Shown here: positions 21,900 to 64,000 of the stretch, in pieces | How positions within the stretch are numbered: position 1 is the stretch's first letter | How the letters are laid out: each line of letters starts with the position of its first letter | DNA from: Arctopsyche grandis | Taxonomy: Eukaryota; Arthropoda; Insecta; Trichoptera; Hydropsychidae | Direction of reading: 5' to 3' | Length of the DNA: 64,000 nt | NCBI RefSeq assembly: GCF_051622035.1 | Contig: NC_135359.1 | Location: 22,602,001-22,666,000, forward strand | Notes under the pieces: generated by a model | What the model was told of the DNA's origin: nothing | The model's input: the letters and a program-made list of their open reading frames with translations, nothing else | Databases searched by the model: none | Made by a program: the position numbers and the translations under genes

Positions 21900-23660
21900 T
21901 ATTCTGCATTTGTGTCAATTGTATGTTGTTTTGAATAAACGGTGATCGATAGCATTTTATCAAAGATGAGGGTGATAATTTGTGATAGATTTGATTGACA
22001 ATGCTCTGTGATAAAGTGGTTTCTGTGTCGTATGTATGTATATGCTTAAAGCGATCTATAAAATGTAAGGATTTCTACCATGTTGTATTATTTTTTTTTA
22101 TTGTTGAAATTACTCATTGCAAGGATAATTACTTTTTGTTTGTGATACAAATGAAATAAACTCCTCTTTGAAAACTTGTCTCTGTTTTCAACGTATTTAT
22201 GTATAAATATTTACTTAGTTTTGCCAATAAATGTGTGTATTTTTGGATTATCTTATTGCTATATGCCATATTTACAATATGTTGATTTGCTACCTTTCAG
22301 TTAATTGTAATTTGTATGCTAATGTATTTTGGATATTATATTTTTTTATCTTAATGTGATATTGAATGTCTCCTTTCACTGAATTGTCATTTGTATACTA
22401 ATGTATTTTGGATATTACATATATTTTTCTTATCTTAATGTAATATTGAATGTCTTCATCTTATCTATTGATGCCTATATACATATGTACAATGTTTTTT
22501 CCTTGATATGCTGAAAAAGTCTGCGGGAACATCTACACGAAACGTTCCTCAAAGTATTATAATAAGTAATTATTTTATCAATCAGCATTATTGTGTTTAT
22601 TAGAATTTAAAATAATCTATTAGCTACTAATATGATCATTAACTGTATTTACTGCCATGATATAACTTCAATGAATTGATTGCATCCAATTTAAGTTTGT
22701 TGGTTGACATATATGTATTTATTTTTATAAAAACTTGCATTGGTATTTTATTTTCACTATGTATTTATATGTAAAAGAAACACAGATTTCGAAAAATTTT
22801 CAAATGTATATTTTACATTGGATTTAAAATGAATAAATAATATATTGTTTTGAATATATTTATTAATATATATCTTATAATATCGACAGTTAAAATAAAT
22901 ATGTATGCTTAGAAGTAAAATACGTATTTCTTTTATGATTTTTGTATATGTAACAAATCAATGACGTTATGAAAGCTCAATCATACATTTTTTTAATTTA
23001 ATACACATTGTAATACTAGTACAGTTTCTTTGTAAGAGTTGTATACACCGTTTGATACTTTTATATAACAGTATTATTTTACTGTGTGATTTAAATTTCA
23101 TCATGATTATTGATGTTAATAATTTTTAATAAAATGTAAGAAACTAATATATTGTTTTTATTTATGTATAATATATGCTTAAATAAATCATATAGTTATA
23201 ATTTTCCTATATTAAATTTTTACAGTTCAATTAATGAATTGTGTATGGAATGATAGTGAGTTTGTGACTTTTATTGCCAATCAGAATTGCTTTGAGATTT
23301 TTAGTTTAGATTCCAAGTGTATCGAAAATTTCCATTACATTGATCTGAAATTTTACAAATTTATTTGTTTAAGTCAACGTAAAATCATTTTAAAACCGAT
23401 TTGAAAATAAAAACTTGAGGTTATCGATAGTAATTACATTAATTGATATATCATTTATCGACAGCTTAAGTATTGCACAATTATATTGTAAATAAAATTA
23501 ATTGTATAAAAGTTGAAACCTATCGCAAATACATTAAAATATTAAAAGGTAAATAAAATAAAACTGTAAACTATAATTTTTGAGATTATAACTCAATCCT
23601 TTTGTATAACTAATTATATAAAAAATAATATTCTTATCATTGTGCAATGCTTCAAATAAT
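21900..23660. other. Spacer between ABHD copy 2 and ninjurin
   Basis: Two closely related ~100-bp segments at about 22270-22340 and 22350-22460 share aatgtattttggatatta and look like a small tandem duplication. Otherwise AT-rich with no gene recognised. The 3' UTR of the ninjurin transcript ending in the 23668 exon must lie just left of that exon on the minus strand. Confidence 0.45.
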
Positions 23661-23667
23661 ATAAATG

Positions 23668-23847
23668 TTATCTTAATTTAGCTTCATCGTCTCTCATAAA
23701 AAAAACATTTACGATTACGTCCACAGATACGATCAAGACATTTATTGCCAAGCACACGTTGTTGAGAATATCAGCTTTTTTGTGGTCTTCTGGTTTGTTC
23801 AGATCAAAGAATGAGCCCAGTACCACAAAGAGTACACCAGCGGTAAC
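23668..23847 (-). CDS. Ninj: Ninjurin alternative last exon D (most distal)
   Basis: 59 residues plus stop, starting VTAGVLFVVLGSFFDLNK. Next comes the conserved DILNN-type turn (ADILNNVCLAINVLIV), a second helix and a short charged tail, MRDDEAKLR. This matches the usual ninjurin order: helix end, polar hairpin, ILNN, helix. The acceptor is 'atgaaag' in phase 0. Confidence 0.85.
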   Translation of the reverse strand, partial: VTAGVLFVVLGSFFDLNKPEDHKKADILNNVCLAINVLIVSVDVIVNVFFMRDDEAKLR

Positions 23848-26800
23848 CTTTCATAAAATAAAATAATAAAATAAAAACAAACTCAAAAAAAACATAAAAA
23901 TAAAAAGCTTGTAATAATAACAAAAAAATAACTCAAATAGACTAATTCGCAAAGATTTCGCCAATGTAATATTAAATTCCACTCAGCTACTGATTATATT
24001 TAATTGATATTGGCATAATTGGTATTGTGCACTGTTCTGATGTTTGATTTTAAGGCTCTACTTTAGTCGCTAGAGCGGGATCGAGACCGAAACTCATTTT
24101 GATGACATCACAGAAAAGAGCAACGGTTACGAAGCCAAGTGCTACGTGATTTATAATAACTGCCATTGTTCTCTGTCTTTCACCCTTATGGAGGTTCAAC
24201 ACAGTCAGTATGATCGTTAAAACAGCCGCGGTCACCTGTTTTCAATAACAGTCGATTAAAATAAATTAAGTGGTATATATAATTCATCGAAAACGTGCAC
24301 GTTAACAAATATCTTTAAGCACACATACATATATAATATAATATATATCACACTTATGTTCTAACCCAATATTATTTTTTATTTCTATTATATTTAAGGT
24401 TTAACAGTCATGTCTCTTTGTAACGTGAGAGGATTGTTGGAATATTCGATGCCGAAGCCTGATATTATAATGTTAACTAGAGATATTATGAAAACGAATA
24501 TTAATATGACATCGTTCAGTATAATAGCCGCAGTCTGATCTCGGTGTTTATTAATGTTCAGTCCCCCTATTATAATGAATAACACTCCGACGATCATCTG
24601 CAGAAATAAAATTTGAGTTTAATGCTAAATTATTACCCTTATAGTTTATCGAAGAATACATTTTAAAAAGAGACGTCGACAGAACAATATTATTTCGATT
24701 CAATTTCCAAAATTTGTGGTACAGACATCAGAAACTTATCAAAACAAAACAATTTAATATGAGACTAGTACGATAGTTTTCACTTTATTAAATGGGGGTT
24801 TATATAAATTGACTTTGAAGCTTCATAGTGCACTAATTTAATTGAAACATACAATTTTAAGTTTATATGTGTCATATTGCCTTTTTATAGTCATGAGGTA
24901 ATGAAAATAATACCATCTAATGGAGTGAGTAGTATTTTAACTTCAAAATCATATTATCTTTTCTGAGTTGAAGCCGATCTAATTAATGAGTCATCATACT
25001 GGTCTCGTTTTACATACACAAGCTGGAAGGCATGTTATATTCAGATTAAAATATTAGAAATTCAATCAAATAAACTAAATAAATAAGTTCAGTCAATACT
25101 CCCTTTTCAAAAGCTATGCTTCAATTTCAGCAAATTCTATTGTCATGAGTATTATACAGGTTTTTCATTACAAATTGACCCTTTTTCATTTCAAATTGAC
25201 CCTTTTTCATTTCAAATTAAACCTTTTTCATTTAAATTGAACCTTTTCAATGTCAATTTGAAATGAAAAAGGGTTAAAAGTTAATTTCAGTATTGAATCT
25301 TTATGTATCATATATTCCATGTCTATTGAAACTAGGAAGTTAGAAATTGTTGAAAGTATTTCCTTATAGCTACTACATGTGTATATTAAATTAATTTGTT
25401 GACAATAATGTATTATTAAATTCTCACAATCGCCAATGCGTCCGGTCTAACTTTGTTCTATATTAAAATTAGCATATTTGGCAATGGACGGATCAAACGC
25501 TGAAATCATCAGGTTCAAAGCTGTAATGGCAAACGAACAACCAGTGCTAATGTAATTGATTAAGTTAGCTGAAAAATGATATGCTGGCAAGTGCAACTTG
25601 CAATCTCTGAACAGATTCAGCGTCAAACATATCAAACCCAACGCTACCTGTGTATTGAAGAAAAGTCCAATTTATACAATTTTTGACAATTTGTCTTTGT
25701 AAATAATAATTGGATTATTTAAATAACATAAATAAATAAATAGTTACCTGTAAAACTATAGATACGGTGATTAGCGTCAGCAGCAAAGTGTAGAACTCGT
25801 GCTTCTCTCCCACTTGCAGGATGTATTTGAGCTGTGATGCATTTGCTGTGAGCAGGGCTATATCCAGCATACCCTGGGCGATGGTCTTTTTAGTAGCATA
25901 TCTGTTGGCATCGAGTCCCTTGATCTGAAACCACGCATCTGCCAATGACATCATTGTGAACACAATTCTTCTTATTACATGCACTTGTTTAATTGAGAAA
26001 ATTGTTTGCACAATTTTACACGGTATACGGATGGAAAACGAAATCACAATGAATCCGGCACAGGTATTGCACGAGGCATCATTCGTCATTTCCTGCATTT
26101 TTAATTTACTTCACTGCCCGACTGCGAACAAATGCCAACATCCTTTCTATAGCCAAGGTTTTTTCGGCTGATTAATGTGTATAAAGGTTGTTATATATTT
26201 TTAATCTTGTAAATCAACACCGATTTCTATTAGTGTGAATTTGGATTTATGAAATTGTACCAGTCATTGGAAAGTGAAAAGTTATAAGTGACGAAAATGA
26301 GAGCACAAATCAAGTGCAGCAATTTAGTGCAAAATTGAGGTTGCCAAGTTTCTTTCGATGCATGTGAACCTCAATTCTTCAGTTAAATGATGATTACATT
26401 TATATTATAAATTACAATTGCATTCAGATTTCCAATTGAGTGACTCTTATTAACTTCTTATGTACATATTATGTATAATATCAAGAAAGTAGGAACAGTA
26501 ATTAAACTTTCTACATACTCAAATATGTAGAAATGAAAATGTAATTCATCACAAACATTGTAAGCAATGGTGTCAAATATTTGAAAATCGTTTTTTACAA
26601 TTATAAATATAAACATGTGTACTTATTTTTAAAAAAAAATTTAGTTTACATTTTATTAGCTGCGTTATTTATAAGTAACTAGCTGAACCCTGGCATGCGT
26701 TGCAATGCCATAATAACGCATGCAATTCCCGTTCCCTTTCCCGTTCTCGTTCCCGTTCCCATTTGTCGGAAAAACGCAGGTAGCGAACACATTTGAAATT

Positions 26801-35808: not shown

Positions 35809-36987
35809 TATTTATTTATTTATTTATTTAATAGTTTTGGACCATTGTGGCATTACAGGAAGAACCTAATGCGCCACAATGGCCTACATTTGAAAAATAT
35901 ATAAAAACATGATATAAAAACAAGTAAACTGTAAATAAAGGAAAAAAGCAAAAGCAGAAAACATGGTAAAATAAAATTACAAAAAAAGTAACAAAAGGAA
36001 AATAATACATCATTCAGAGAGAAAAAAAAAATAACAAAAGTGTAAAAATTAAAAATAAAATCCATAAATCCCATTCTTTGTTTACACTGATCAAAATTAA
36101 AATAGTATATAAAAATGTACAAAAGAGAAAGAAAAAATAAAATAAAATAAAACAAAATATGAATAAAAAATAAAATCACAGCGAGGCCCAAATGGAAGAG
36201 AGTAGATTAAGATTCCACTCATTCATCACATTCAAATTAAGAAAGTAATGATGAGCGCAGGTTACCAGATAAATATGTTAAGATAATATCCGACAATCTA
36301 CGCTCCCCAAGGTGGAAAATATCACATTCAGGGACAGCAGCAATGATTTCATTGAGAAGTCGAATAGCTCTTGGAATAGGAGCCATTCGAAAAAGAACTG
36401 TGCGAGCAGCAGGTACAACCATTAAATGATGATGTCTACCACGCACATAATTATTAGGGACATAAAGTCCCAACTGTTCCAGCAACAACGGGCATGACGT
36501 ATTACCACGCAATAGCTGGAGAACGAAACGAATTAACGAGAAGTTTCTCCGAAGTTCAAGGGAATTATACCCAAGCATGCCCAAAAGGAAAGGAGTAGGA
36601 TAGAGATATGGGTAGTACCCATACTCTTTCTTATAAAGAAAACGAAGAAATGCTTTTTGCACTTTTTCTATAATAAGAGAGTAGTTTGCTTCGTGCGGAT
36701 TCCACACAATTGCATTATACTCTAGCTTACTTCTAACAAGCGAGTTGAAAAGCAAGCGAGAAGACAAGGGGTTGGAGAATAATCTAGCATATCTCAAGAC
36801 AAATCCAAGTCGACGAAAGGAAACGTCAGCGATTGTCTTGATGTGGTTGTGAAAGGTGAATTGAGGATCAAAAGTGATACCCAAGTCGACCATTGATTCC
36901 ACGCGCTTCAACAATACGGATCCAATGGAATATCCGTGACAATAGAGCGAATTCGCACGTCCATAACTCATAATAGCACATTTACTA
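35809..36987 (-). mobile_element. Jockey/CR1-like LINE, 5'-truncated recent copy
   Basis: 1,179 bp matching the 3' end of the LINE at 60400-62722 with no indels and only two substitutions seen (36239 and 36336 region). It encodes the last 244 residues of ORF2 (MSYGRANSLYCHGYSIGS to the stop at 36237) and a 3' UTR ending in a tttatttattta tail. The match stops sharply after acatttacta, which marks the 5' truncation. Confidence 0.93.
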
Positions 36988-36999
36988 TATTTACATTTT

Positions 37000-37890
37000 A
37001 TGATTTGACGACCTTAAACTTTTCGTAGCCTTGCTATTGTTTCCCACTCTCTTTTACTAGTTTCGTTTCTTTTTGATTATTCCTTATTTCTGCAAGTTTT
37101 ATCATACATACATATGTACATAGATACCGAAGTATAAATTAACATATTTAAATCATTTTTAACTATGTATAATCTCAAGACTACTACCATTTAAAAAAGC
37201 ATATATTTAGATATATAGTATGGCATTTTTAATGGCATTTAACATAAATTTCCACTGCATTAAAATTGTTTAATAAGGTTCCCGGAAAAATGCACACAAT
37301 GGTTCCGCAGTCTCAAGAAATCCATATTTTAAAAGACTTCCACCTAAGTGTCAGCAACCTCTGATAACATACAAATACCCCTTTGATTATTTTTTGTGGA
37401 ATTCTTCTTTCGCGCTTTTGGAAGTTTTAATTTATCGAGTGTGCTGCACTATTGTGTGCATTCTCCGATCACCGTTTAACAATATTATATAGCCATCTGT
37501 AGATATTTTTAAAAAATAATAAAAATAATTTTGTTTAATATTCACATTGTTGTAGGTTATTTAATACAATATGTAAAACACAATTTATATATTTAAAAAT
37601 ACATAAAAAAATTACAAGCATTTATATAAGTTTAGTACATTCGTTTAAATTATCTTCTTAGCCCGTTTGCAAACCATAGTTTTTTTCTAATTCATCAATA
37701 GATGTCACTGCTAAAAGTGTGAATTTTGCCATGGCGCTCAACAGGTGACAGGAACGTCAGTTCTCTATCGACCGGCATTGGTGGCCGCGCTCTAATTCGC
37801 TGTCACGTCAATAATTCGACCACAGCGAAAGTTAACTGCCAAGGCCCGACATTCGCGGTCCTTCTGAGTCAGACCAGTTCATTCCTTCGT
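37000..37890. other. Spacer and promoter region before dihydropteridine reductase
   Basis: A weak inverted-repeat pair (aaaaatgcacacaatgg near 37288, ctattgtgtgcattctcc near 37453) may be a decayed ~190-bp TIR element. From 37725 the GC content rises and the sequence is probably 5' UTR; an in-frame ATG at 37726 would add 58 residues unlike the family. Confidence 0.4.
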
Positions 37891-40978: not shown

Positions 40979-42204
40979 TTAAATCGTTCTTCCGAACTTT
41001 TCTTCGTACTTCTTCTTGTAATTACCCTGAGGATCGAATTTCTTTGATAGCCTATCCCAATCTCTGGGTCTCTTCGTTGTCAAGTGTTTGAATACTTTTT
41101 CAGTTGTGCTTCTTTGTCTTTCATTGCACTTGTTGCAACCGTTAGCTAGAGCATCCGGTAAAGTCTCTATAAACAAAAACAAACATATATCATGCAACAT
41201 GTACAAACAACATTGTTATTCCGAACGTTGATGATTAACTTTCACCGATTTGACCACTCGCAAAAAATATACGAGAGTATAAGCATTCTAAAGTACGGTT
41301 ACATCATTAATTTTGCACAACTAAAGTTTCACGCAATTATAATCTGACAATGATTCTGAGTACTCGATATTACGAGATGTGTATAATGTACGCATTGTGC
41401 AACGAATATTGTATAGAGTTGGAAGTGCTTAGGAACTGCTATTGCAGTTTATAAACAACTACATACATTCATATGTACTTGCAATCTGACCTAAATATTG
41501 GAAAACCTGTTGCTAGTTATGGTGTGAAGCAATCATTCCATAATGATTTTGCACGTCGAGAAAATTTCGCTATTGAGTAAAAAACTTAGGGTTTTGTGCT
41601 GTATTTTGGTTACTAGATTTGTTGGTCAATGATAAGGTCGAAACTGAGACCGTGAAAATTTACCTTGGTCAAACGAAACTTCTAGAAGACATTTTTATAT
41701 ACATATATATAGAATACTTAGAATGAATATAAACTTTTACCTCAATTGCGGAGAATTGAGGATAATTACAAGAATATCAAGCGACTTTTCACCGTTACTG
41801 ATGTCATTGAAAACTGGTCGTGTTTATTCATTATCAAATAAATATTGATGATATTCCATAGCGACTGTCAATCGTCAAGTTCAAGGTGTGATGAGTAAGA
41901 AAGTGCAATGCTCTCGAATGTTTCTCGACATTTCTAACAATTGTCTGGTCTGCTTTGCATATCCACACACATATACATATCCAGTTTCACTTAAAAGTAA
42001 TATTTTGTACTGATACTTACTTTTCAATTCCCTTCCTTCAGCTGTGCAAGGTCCTTCGTCCAACATGCATTTGATGTAATTGTTGAGGATCCTGTCGTTG
42101 GCAAGGATACGATCTACGTCTACGTTATCATACTTTGTTGTGTATTTTTCTTTAGCGGCCAACACCAATGACAATGTCATCAGCAAGAATACAAAAATAC
42201 GCAT
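40979..42204 (-). CDS. Chemosensory protein (OS-D/CSP family)
   Basis: Two exons, 42021-42204 and 40979-41166, split after one base of a Lys codon, the intron position typical of insect CSPs; 123 residues. Signal peptide [18 protein letters not shown], then [20 protein letters not shown]. The four-Cys pattern is exact: C-x6-C (CMLDEGPC), 18 residues, C-x2-C (CNKC). The C-terminal part has the family's KRPRDWDRL and [11 protein letters not shown]. CSPs are small secreted helical carriers of hydrophobic ligands, used in chemoreception and also development or xenobiotic handling. A tcattgcag just before the ATG suggests an extra 5' non-coding exon. Confidence 0.95.
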
Positions 42205-42384
42205 CTTAATACTGCAATGACAACACAAATAAGTTCAGATGCTTTTTACTTTGAGGAGAAAAATGTGCTATAACTTCTATGTATGTAGTAAGGCAAAAAT
42301 GAGCAAAAGAATATCGTTCTTTACAAAGAATGTATTTTACAAAATACGAGATAGTATGTTACATTTCGGTGCGCTCCGTCCTAC

Positions 42385-60399: not shown

Positions 60400-62722
60400 T
60401 ATATTTATTTATTTATTTATTTAATAGTTTTGGACCATTGTGGCATTACAGGAAGAACCTAATGCGCCACAATGGCCTACATTTGAAAAATATATAAAAA
60501 CATGATATAAAAACAAGTAAACTGTAAATAAAGGAAAAAAGCAAAAGCAGAAAACATGGTAAAATAAAATTACAAAAAAAGTAACAAAAGGAAAATAATA
60601 CATCATTCAGAGAGAAAAAAAAAATAACAAAAGTGTAAAAATTAAAAATAAAATCCATAAATCCCATTCTTTGTTTACACTGATCAAAATTAAAATAGTA
60701 TATAAAAATGTACAAAAGAGAAAGAAAAAATAAAATAAAATAAAACAAAATATGAATAAAAAATAAAATCACAGCGAGGCCCAAATGGAAGAGAGTAGAT
60801 TAAGATTCCACTCATTCATCACATTCAAATTAAAAAAGTAATGATGAGCGCAGGTTACCAGATAAATATGTTAAGATAATATCCGACAATCTACGCTCCC
60901 CAAGGTGGAAAATATCACATTCAGGGACAGCAGCAACGATTTCATTGAGAAGTCGAATAGCTCTTGGAATAGGAGCCATTCGAAAAAGAACTGTGCGAGC
61001 AGCAGGTACAACCATTAAATGATGATGTCTACCACGCACATAATTATTAGGGACATAAAGTCCCAACTGTTCCAGCAACAACGGGCATGACGTATTACCA
61101 CGCAATAGCTGGAGAACGAAACGAATTAACGAGAAGTTTCTCCGAAGTTCAAGGGAATTATACCCAAGCATGCCCAAAAGGAAAGGAGTAGGATAGAGAT
61201 ATGGGTAGTACCCATACTCTTTCTTATAAAGAAAACGAAGAAATGCTTTTTGCACTTTTTCTATAATAAGAGAGTAGTTTGCTTCGTGCGGATTCCACAC
61301 AATTGCATTATACTCTAGCTTACTTCTAACAAGCGAGTTGAAAAGCAAGCGAGAAGACAAGGGGTTGGAGAATAATCTAGCATATCTCAAGACAAATCCA
61401 AGTCGACGAAAGGAAACGTCAGCGATTGTCTTGATGTGGTTGTGAAAGGTGAATTGAGGATCAAAAGTGATACCCAAGTCGACCATTGATTCCACGCGCT
61501 TCAACAATACGGATCCAATGGAATATCCGTGACAATAGAGCGAATTCGCACGTCCATAACTCATAATAGCACATTTACTAGTATTCAGTTCAAGCCCTAA
61601 ACTGGAACTGAACTCTAAAACAGCGTTAATATCAGCTTGAAGGAGAGAGGCTTGCCTCTCATCCTTAACAGCAAAGAATAGTTTAACGTCGTCAGCAAAC
61701 AAGAGACATGAAGCATTGCGTAGTACTTTTGGGAGGTTATTAATGACTATTGTAAATAGTAAAGGGCCTAAGGTGGACCCCTGAGTTACACCAGATCGCG
61801 TAAAAAATGAAGGAGATTCATAAATACCATATCTAACAAATTGCTTCCTATCACTAAGATAAGAAGCAAAGAGTTTAAGAAGACGTGGAGAAAAGCCCAC
61901 TTCAGCTAATCTGATCATAAGAGCGTCATTGTTGACAAGATCAAATGCTTTTCGAAAGTCAAAGTAGGCTACATCAACTTGTTGTCCACGGTCAACTTTA
62001 GACATGGTATAATATGAAAAGCAGGCAAGATTAGTGGTAGTGGAACGACATGGTGAAAAACCATGCTGCTCATCACACAACAATCTTTTGAACTGCAAAA
62101 GAATCAAACGGTGAAGGATATTATCGAAAATTTTGGGAATAGCCGAGATGATAGCAATAGGTCTGTAATTTTCAACCTCATTTTTAGAGCCACTTTTATG
62201 AATGGGAATGACTCTAGATAATTTCCATTTTTCAGGATAATTACCAGAATCCAGAATAAGGTTAAAAATAAACTGAAGAGGCTCTAAGAGCGAATTACAG
62301 CATGCCTTTAATACGTCAGGGGGCACACCGTCAGGCCCAACAGACCTTTTCAGCTTCAAAATTGCTATCCTAACATCTCCAAGCGAGACCCGCGGAATGT
62401 CTATAATAACACCTTCAGTACCAATTTGGGAAGCCAAATTAGCATCAAGGGATGGTGATCTCTGATCAAATACAGAGCTAAAAAAACTAGCAAAAGCTTT
62501 AGCGATCTCAGGACCGACACAACTTTTATTATTAAATGAGAACGAATGCTCAAGGCCATGTGAAATATGCTTACTCTTAATAAATCTGAAAAAGTATGCC
62601 TTTATATGTATGCCTTTAAACGTGATGTCTTTTAAAATGTTCTCGTATTGAAAAGTCCCTATTTGAAACATTTCGCAGTCGTTATCTGTAACTGTAAAAG
62701 GACATTTTTTTTCGTTGTACAA
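60400..62722 (-). mobile_element. Jockey/CR1-like LINE with long open ORF2 (5'-truncated)
   Basis: The open frame 60830-62722 (630 residues) encodes a reverse transcriptase: KSGSKNEVENYRPIAIISAI (finger), DVAYFDFRKAFDLV (residues ~250-263), GVTQGSTLGPLLF, catalytic FADDVKLF (FADD at 342-345), LGLELNTSKCAIMSYG, and the thumb and C-terminal region to LSGNLRSSLLF. No stop interrupts it. The upstream apurinic endonuclease and ORF1 are absent; the first ~45 residues look unlike LINE protein, so the truncation lies near 62580. The 3' UTR ends in a tttatttattta tail at 60400. It is too short to move itself, but very young by comparison with 35809-36987. Confidence 0.93.
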
Positions 62723-62729
62723 AAACCAA

Positions 62730-64000
62730 ATAGTTTACACGGTCAATTAGCAAGTGTTTTCGGGTTTATTTGAGGATGGTATAGAAAGTGACAAAAGTGG
62801 AAAAATGTTTATTTGAAACGTACAGGTATTTAAAAACGTGTGCCTACATGTATAATATATTGTAAAATTTTATGAAAGTTCTAAAGAAAAATCGATCGAT
62901 CTCGTATTTCACACACGTACCGACATATTTGCGTGCAATGACCTATAAAATTGATTATGAATAGAGTACCTTGTCAATCAAGGTTGTTTATATACGTACA
63001 TATGAACATATATGGTGTTTTAGTATTCGGAAGTTGACATGTTTGTTTGAATAATGATTATCATCTCCGAGTACAGCCGTGCAAATACACAACGTCATTA
63101 CAATCGTAAATGTGTACATTGCGCAGTTTTATTCGCATTAAGTCGACACAATAAATCGTTAAATTGGGCAATAATGTCTTTGGATTTTATGTCGATGGTT
63201 TTTCGACCGAATTAAGTACTATTTACATTCGTAGGGGAATTTCGTCGATTGTCGTACCATACATAATAGCTTTCGATTTCATTGGACGTAATTATAATAC
63301 ATATGTACATACATATGTAAGTGAATATTGAACACATCAGTAGGTGTTGACCTTATGTATATCATAGAAATCTTTTTTTTTTTTTTTAATAATTATTTTA
63401 CTTATTGTTGATTATTGAGTGTGACCGTTCGATAGATGATCGATCTGAAAACGTATTACAGTTGTGTAATTGCATCTTTTTATGTCAAGGTTTTGTGGGG
63501 TCGAATTTCATAATACCTATATAATATAATTATTTTACATCAATATGGTCACCCTTGCGTGCTCGCTTCGTTGTTCTGAATATTTTTTGCTATTTTATGC
63601 GTACATGTATGTACATATCTAATCAAGTTTTTTTTTATTTTATTTATTGTTTCTTTTAACAATTTACAGCTATCGGTATTGGAAACTTGTTGATTTACTA
63701 TAGAACACATACTATTTTGACATTTTAAAATGTAGTATTATATTTATAGTATTATTAAATTAAAAACATCCGGAGACAATATATGCAAATAATGGACAGA
63801 AAAATTTGCTATTTACTTGATTTGAAATTCGATTATAATTTAAAGTATTTTTTGCGTTTCAAAGATTATTGATATAATACAATAAACAATCGTCAACGCT
63901 CTGCAGCCCAACATGAAATACGAAGATTTTTCAATGGGACGAGAATTAATCATTTATTATTGTAATAGTTGGTATATTTTGTATTGACAACTGCTTTATT
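62730..64000. other. Right-edge spacer, no gene seen
   Basis: AT-rich with ACAT/TATG microsatellites and a T run at 63371-63387. The missing first exon of the long chemosensory gene could lie further right, outside the window. Confidence 0.4.

Follow-up and report, generated by a model that had tools for sequence, protein, structure and literature searches.

A ninjurin gene of the insect Arctopsyche grandis with four candidate alternative last exons

Introduction

Ninjurins are known already, as are alternative C-terminal exons in insect serpins (PMC10513286). NINJ1 filaments perform plasma membrane rupture, and the inability of NINJ2 to do so is a matter of debate in which the N-terminus is set against the helix and lipid contacts; NINJ2 is reported to have gained rupture activity by exchange of the N-terminal 30 residues (PMC12547243). 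Insect ninjurins respond to injury or infection (PMC3460944; PMC6262927), and ninjurins are over-represented among mosquito transcripts enriched in antenna and palp, with 17 Ninjurin-domain entries in the transcriptome (PMC5637092). Drosophila NijA kills cells, an activity for which the intracellular loop is partly required, and NijA without its N-terminal ectodomain neither killed nor was detected at the surface (PMC3460944).

The residues through which NINJ1 assembles have been probed by mutation. According to Degen et al. (2023), K45Q, D53A, I84F, Q91A, G95L, T123L, I134F, and A138L cut or abolished lysis and gave fewer filaments, and A47L was non-functional in cells (PMC10307626). The strongest coevolving pair, F127 and G95, connects adjacent subunits, and T123L was dysfunctional alone, but contributed activity when present with the wild type (PMC10307626). 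In the literature searched, we found no description of alternative ninjurin endings; genome annotations (RefSeq, FlyBase) may already list such isoforms.

Here we describe an insect locus in which one half of a ninjurin is constant and the other is available in four naturally occurring versions, a ready-made chimera experiment. We consider it probable (roughly 0.7), judging from sequence features, that this is one ninjurin gene whose four alternative last exons would give four ninjurins assembling differently. If so, splicing would diversify a death and adhesion protein in insects.

Results

Gene layout

The window, by which we mean the whole stretch of 64,000 nucleotides that was analyzed, carries on its minus strand (contig C5) a ninjurin gene consisting of one shared exon and four separate candidate last exons, A to D, as follows.

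25925..25954, minus strand: probable coding start, with the ATG at 25954, reading MMSLADAWFQ in frame with the shared exon; we infer this start and do not place it by homology
25748..25924, minus strand: shared ninjurin exon, matching PF04923, with the 5' edge given by the sequence-only reading; it holds the amphipathic N-terminal helices and the first half of membrane helix 1
25648..25747, minus strand: intron between the shared exon and ending A, 100 bases, G+C 0.19
25447..25647, minus strand: ending A, 201 bases with stop, 66 aa
24394..24597, minus strand: ending B, 204 bases with stop, 67 aa
24050..24235, minus strand: ending C, 186 bases with stop, 61 aa
23668..23847, minus strand: ending D, 180 bases with stop, 59 aa

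The shared exon (IKGLDANRYATKKTIAQGMLDIALLTANASQLKYILQVGEKHEFYTLLLTLITVSIVLQ) closes with the donor CAG/GTAACT at 25748/25747, in which GTAACT starts from 25747. Each of the four endings has an AG acceptor, phase 0, a length divisible by 3, and its own stop, and the first codon of B is ATG. Endings B and C are separated by 158 bases and C and D by 202 bases; the G+C content of the endings is 0.35 to 0.44 versus 0.19 to 0.27 in the DNA between them. The locus therefore has the plan of tandem last exons, namely, one constant donor, homologous exons, same-phase acceptors, and separate stops. The coordinates of the donor, the four acceptors, and the stops in the sequence-only reading proved exact to the base, and phase, lengths, stops, and ninjurin homology confirm its claim of four downstream exons, each with a phase-0 AG and its own stop.

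Several other features of the window were noted. A tandem array with a 21-base unit (25161-25262; 4.9 copies, 87% matches) lies between A and B. Immediately upstream of the gene, the segment 26670-26960 has TTCCCG-type runs and ends in GGGTTCAGCTAGT on the minus strand; it resembles the end of a mobile element, which we take to be perhaps Helitron-like. On the minus strand, 41887-42234 is a chemosensory-protein exon matching OS-D (PF03392), a family whose description is that of insect pheromone-binding proteins, and 3-2303, at the window edge, is a 767-aa open frame with a Ser/Lys/Glu-rich repeat (SEKSGHTTKSTPTSSPASEKS...). By eye, 35856-37013 and 60449-62734, also on the minus strand, hold two similar 117-aa frames adjoining reverse transcriptase-like frames and are probably two copies of a single retroelement.

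Start of the coding sequence

The 5' edge of the shared exon, set at 25924 in the sequence-only reading, did not hold up well. The putative acceptor there, within TGGCAGATGCGTGGTTTCAG, is pyrimidine-poor (0.47; the fractions for the acceptors of A to D are 0.65, 0.71, 0.47, and 0.65, so that C is equally poor), and upstream of 25924 the frame stays open as far as the in-frame ATG at 25954, which has an A at -3, and a second in-frame ATG at 26098. The start of the shared exon was thus probably misplaced. In the simplest model, the first exon would be translated from 25954 to 25748, and each isoform would have two coding exons; the N-terminus of the gene, as read from the sequence, then seems short. 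Base composition does not settle whether there is an upstream exon, since G+C in 60-base windows is 0.35 to 0.43 from 26190 to 25981, dips to 0.28 at 26010-25951, and is equally high in the stretch ~26300-26370; G+C as proof of such an exon was accordingly set aside as indecisive.

A second ninjurin gene in the genome

A search of the genome (475.7 Mb, 189 contigs) with the Pfam Ninjurin profile yielded two loci, the present gene on C5 and a gene on C8, and the same two were found with the shared exon, among the best-scored candidates. The C8 gene (C8:7774001-7783900) has the same join after LQ and one ending in 9.9 kb, and no extra endings passed the threshold in those 9.9 kb (best remainder E 0.046). 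By eye it is NijA-like, with a longer upstream part. Searching the genome with single endings recovered, among the best-scored candidates, only A itself for A; B itself, the C8 gene (E 2.3e-4), D (0.053), and C (0.16) for B; and, for D, D itself, a weak hit to B (E 0.12), and a poor match on C4 (E 4.8). Viral and prokaryote contig collections, neither meant for insects, gave 36 and 41 pattern matches, none of which was confirmed as a relative, an outcome to be expected of a gene from an insect.

Ninjurin identity and chance controls

By itself, the shared exon matches PF04923 with 92.9 bits over profile positions 1-54. Joined to A, B, C, and D, it scores 117, 136.8, 117, and 129.3 bits over profile positions 1-102, always reaching the last position, and all four joined isoforms pass the curated cut-off of 26 bits. 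Of the endings alone (A 16.1, B 33.5, C 15.0, and D 25.5 bits), only B is above that cut-off. Phase, signals, stops, and lengths, together with the completion of the family profile by each ending, support the reading of one gene with alternative endings.

For leave-one-out searches, profiles were built from the other three endings and the last exon of the C8 gene and run against the 1120 stop-to-stop stretches of at least 30 aa in the window. Each ending came first among the stretches outside its training set, with E-values of 0.015 (A), 6.7e-13 (B), 1.5e-5 (C), and 2.4e-8 (D), the best unrelated stretches reaching 0.14, 0.24, 0.055, and 0.31, respectively. Endings B, C, and D are thus clearly recovered by profiles built without them. 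Ending A is weak alone, so that it is chiefly the joined alignment that supports it. No fifth or decayed copy came above the inclusion threshold when 20-30 kb was scanned in six frames (best remainder E 0.25).

Open frames after an AG are common here: 411 of the 5674 AG sites in the window, both strands counted, open a frame of at least 58 codons, which is why such frames are no proof alone and the case rests on homology. Codon usage was likewise rejected as proof of coding. The reading frame is the best of three for all five exons, but a test at the 95% level failed to separate the four endings from random open stretches, the shared exon being the sole exon (0.666 bits per codon) above that level (0.585).

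All four joined isoforms align to human NINJ1 (chain 8uip_A) and NINJ2 (chain 8szb), with scores for NINJ1 versus NINJ2 of 79.2 versus 62.9 bits for A, 81.8 versus 87.5 for B, 70.8 versus 69.9 for C, and 88.4 versus 73.9 for D. Equating B with NINJ2 was considered and dropped; the order of the scores agrees, but B lacks the key Gln that marks NINJ2. Membrane helix 1 has a hydrophobicity of 2.48 to 2.87 across the four isoforms, and the Kyte-Doolittle peaks of membrane helix 2 are 1.52 (A), 2.87 (B), 2.16 (C), and 2.44 (D). A hydrophobic second helix in every ending, as proposed from the letters alone, is borne out for B to D (2.16 to 2.87) but not for A, where the helix is weakly hydrophobic.

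The join and the NINJ1 interface residues

The last residue of the shared exon aligns with Q91 of human NINJ1 and the first of the endings with position 92, which puts the join inside membrane helix 1; each ending replaces the remainder of helix 1, the loop, helix 2, and the tail. The proposal that the shared exon ends within the first membrane helix is thus correct, with the addition that the endings hold the rest of that helix. In alignments to 8uip_A, the shared exon keeps the residues aligned to K44, K45, D53, I84, and Q91, and the K44/K45 and D53 equivalents expected of an amphipathic N-terminal helix are present by residue alignment. Position 47 is Ile in the shared exon versus Ala in NINJ1, Val in NINJ2, and Leu in the C8 gene. 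The swapped half has the following residues, in NINJ1 numbering.

Ending A: A93, G95, L117, T123, F127, N133, L134, A138
Ending B: I93, G95, I117, L123, F127, N133, I134, G138
Ending C: T93, A95, I117, L123, T127, D133, V134, K136, S138
Ending D: T93, G95, I117, L123, V127, D133, V134, V138
C8 gene: A93, G95, R117, V123, F127, N133, V134, S138

Ending A retains G95, T123, F127, N133, and A138 of NINJ1, and its loop is 3 residues longer than that of NINJ1. Of the four, B most closely resembles both the family profile and the C8 last exon. Ending C is the most changed at filament positions (G95A, T123L, F127T, N133D, I136K, and A138S), and D, whose loop (DLNKPEDHKKADILNN) resembles that of NINJ1, has the changes F127V, N133D, and A138V. 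The G95-F127 pair is kept in A and B, with Ala-Thr in C and Gly-Val in D. As judged from these alignments, A comes nearest to NINJ1 at those interface positions in the swapped half that have been tested, and C and D have changed most there. Across the whole swapped half, A matches NINJ1 at 16/50 residues, B at 19/52, C at 12/51, and D at 19/50, so that the lead of A is confined to the interface positions. The C8 gene has V123; position 123 is thus not conserved among the ninjurins of this host, and Leu in B to D is no loss by itself. Mapping of the NINJ1 filament positions tested by Degen et al. places some of them in the endings and upholds, at the level of aligned residues, the proposal that the swap would touch the oligomer surface.

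Poly(A) signals

Downstream of the endings, canonical hexamers occur at different distances.

24378..24383, minus strand: AATAAA, +11 after the B stop
23999..24004, minus strand: ATTAAA, +46 after the C stop
23360..23365, minus strand: first AATAAA after the D stop, +303

After the stop of A come the variants AATACA (+33) and AATATA (+60), and the first canonical hexamers are ATTAAA at +605 and AATAAA at +658, both before exon B. The hexamers of B (+11) and C (+46) would fit separate 3' ends.

Age of the endings and selection

The endings share 13-22 of 53-60 residues pairwise (B-C 22/60), and their identities to the last exon of the C8 gene are 23/61 for B, 17/59 for A, 12/60 for C, and 15/54 for D. 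No exon-to-exon DNA homology was found among A to D; overlaps of flanks aside, the best DNA match is one of 17 bases (E 0.007) between the downstream flanks of A and C. With only such short matches, dating the endings by DNA similarity was abandoned. The proposal that the cassette grew by exon duplication stands in that the endings are homologous. Recent growth is not supported, the B-C identity (22/60) being about that of B and the C8 exon (23/61). As the endings are about as distant from each other as B is from the C8 last exon, the cassette may be old.

Decay without selection was simulated with point changes only, in which a redrawn base may equal the old one, in 4000 runs per value. The AG and the open frame survived in 17-34% of runs at 0.2 redraws per site, 2.3-7.4% at 0.5, and 0.4-1.2% at 1.0. 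Because simulated survival is low and exon-to-exon DNA homology is absent, all four endings were most likely constrained for most of their history, which is in line with the earlier suggestion that selection has kept all four intact; one or two of them may have lost constraint recently.

These results bear on the possibility that only one or two endings are used (B probably, D perhaps) and that the rest are fading duplicates that still look intact. Taken alone, A and C have the lowest family scores (16.1 and 15.0 bits), the first 600 bases after A contain no canonical poly(A) hexamer, and the second helix of C carries D133 and K136; moreover, with 17-34% of unselected exons still intact at 0.2 redraws per site, the simulation is compatible with a recent loss of constraint. 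We nevertheless consider this possibility unlikely: all four endings keep acceptor, phase, frame, loop-helix layout, and stop despite having no exon-to-exon DNA homology, and the retention of G95, T123, F127, N133, and A138 of NINJ1 by ending A is hard to explain if A is dead.

Discussion

If the gene does produce four alternative ninjurins, as we favor, the donor at 25747 would pair in the pre-mRNA with one of the four acceptors, the choice of acceptor would be tied to the poly(A) site downstream of the chosen exon, and the mRNA would end there. All isoforms would carry the constant half of the interface (the positions aligned to K44, K45, D53, I84, and Q91) and would vary in the other half (93, 95, 117, 121, 123, 127, 134, and 138). 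With one half constant and the other varied, differences among the isoforms are to be expected in self-assembly, in the choice of partners, or in location. This reading also predicts filaments built from more than one isoform, the strength of which would follow the blend.

It is tempting to go further and suppose that the choice of last exon sets lytic power, with A providing a NINJ1-like interface and C and D, with their altered positions 127 and 138 and the charges in the second helix, serving to cap or blend mixed filaments. Were this so, splicing would give the insect what vertebrates hold as separate NINJ1 and NINJ2 genes. We regard this extension as doubtful. The bulky Ile at position 47 weakens it and would speak against a lytic role in view of the non-functional A47L of NINJ1, though the same position is a bulky Leu in the C8 gene. 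The short-looking N-terminus would do so as well, by analogy with the data on the NijA ectodomain and the NINJ2 N-terminal exchange.

Alternatively, the endings may all be used, the choice among them mainly setting 3' ends and mRNA stability and the isoforms being functionally equal. The poly(A) signals do vary in type and distance, as such a role would have it, but residues at the tested interface positions differ among the endings, some by charge (N133D and I136K), and we find this explanation improbable. That A to D are instead the remnants of four tandem ninjurin genes, with first exons lost or elsewhere, was rejected as a very improbable reading, for although gene duplication could leave homologous tandem C-terminal exons and B starts with ATG, a single shared exon was found at the locus (genome search, best-scored candidates), the 158- and 202-base gaps are too small for the 177-base shared exon plus a promoter, and B to D by themselves have no amphipathic helices.

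The one-gene, four-ending reading can be compared with several known systems. Vertebrate NINJ1 and NINJ2 have the same whole-length domain, and the equivalents of K44, K45, D53, I84, and Q91 are kept in the shared exon here. In humans, NINJ1 and NINJ2 are two genes (PMC12547243), whereas the four second halves described here would come from one gene. NINJ2 is described as having a Gln at the place of NINJ1 F117 (PMC12547243); this Gln is absent in all endings, which have Leu (A) or Ile (B to D) there. Drosophila has three ninjurin genes, NijA, NijB, and NijC, versus the two found here by Pfam. NijC is reported to be without extensive extracellular domains (PMC11664169), and the present gene would be alike if the ATG at 25954 is the start. 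The NijA locus of the fly is described with four exons, a 'form A', and the transcript NijA-RA, and that description, as far as it covers gene structure, presents no set of alternative endings (PMC3460944).

Among proteins unrelated to ninjurin, the isoforms of Gasdermin B likewise illustrate how splicing alters the activity of a lytic cell-death protein, although there it is the interdomain linker that changes (PMC12547243). The same gene plan is known from insect serpin-1, in which constitutive exons precede several alternative C-terminal exons, homologous to one another, which exchange the working part of the protein; PpSerpin-1 is reported to have alternative N-terminal exons as well and an extra base at its C-terminal join (PMC10513286). 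What serpin-1 swaps is the loop that determines inhibitor specificity (PMC10513286), whereas the ninjurin gene would swap half of a membrane protein and, with it, a presumed self-assembly surface.
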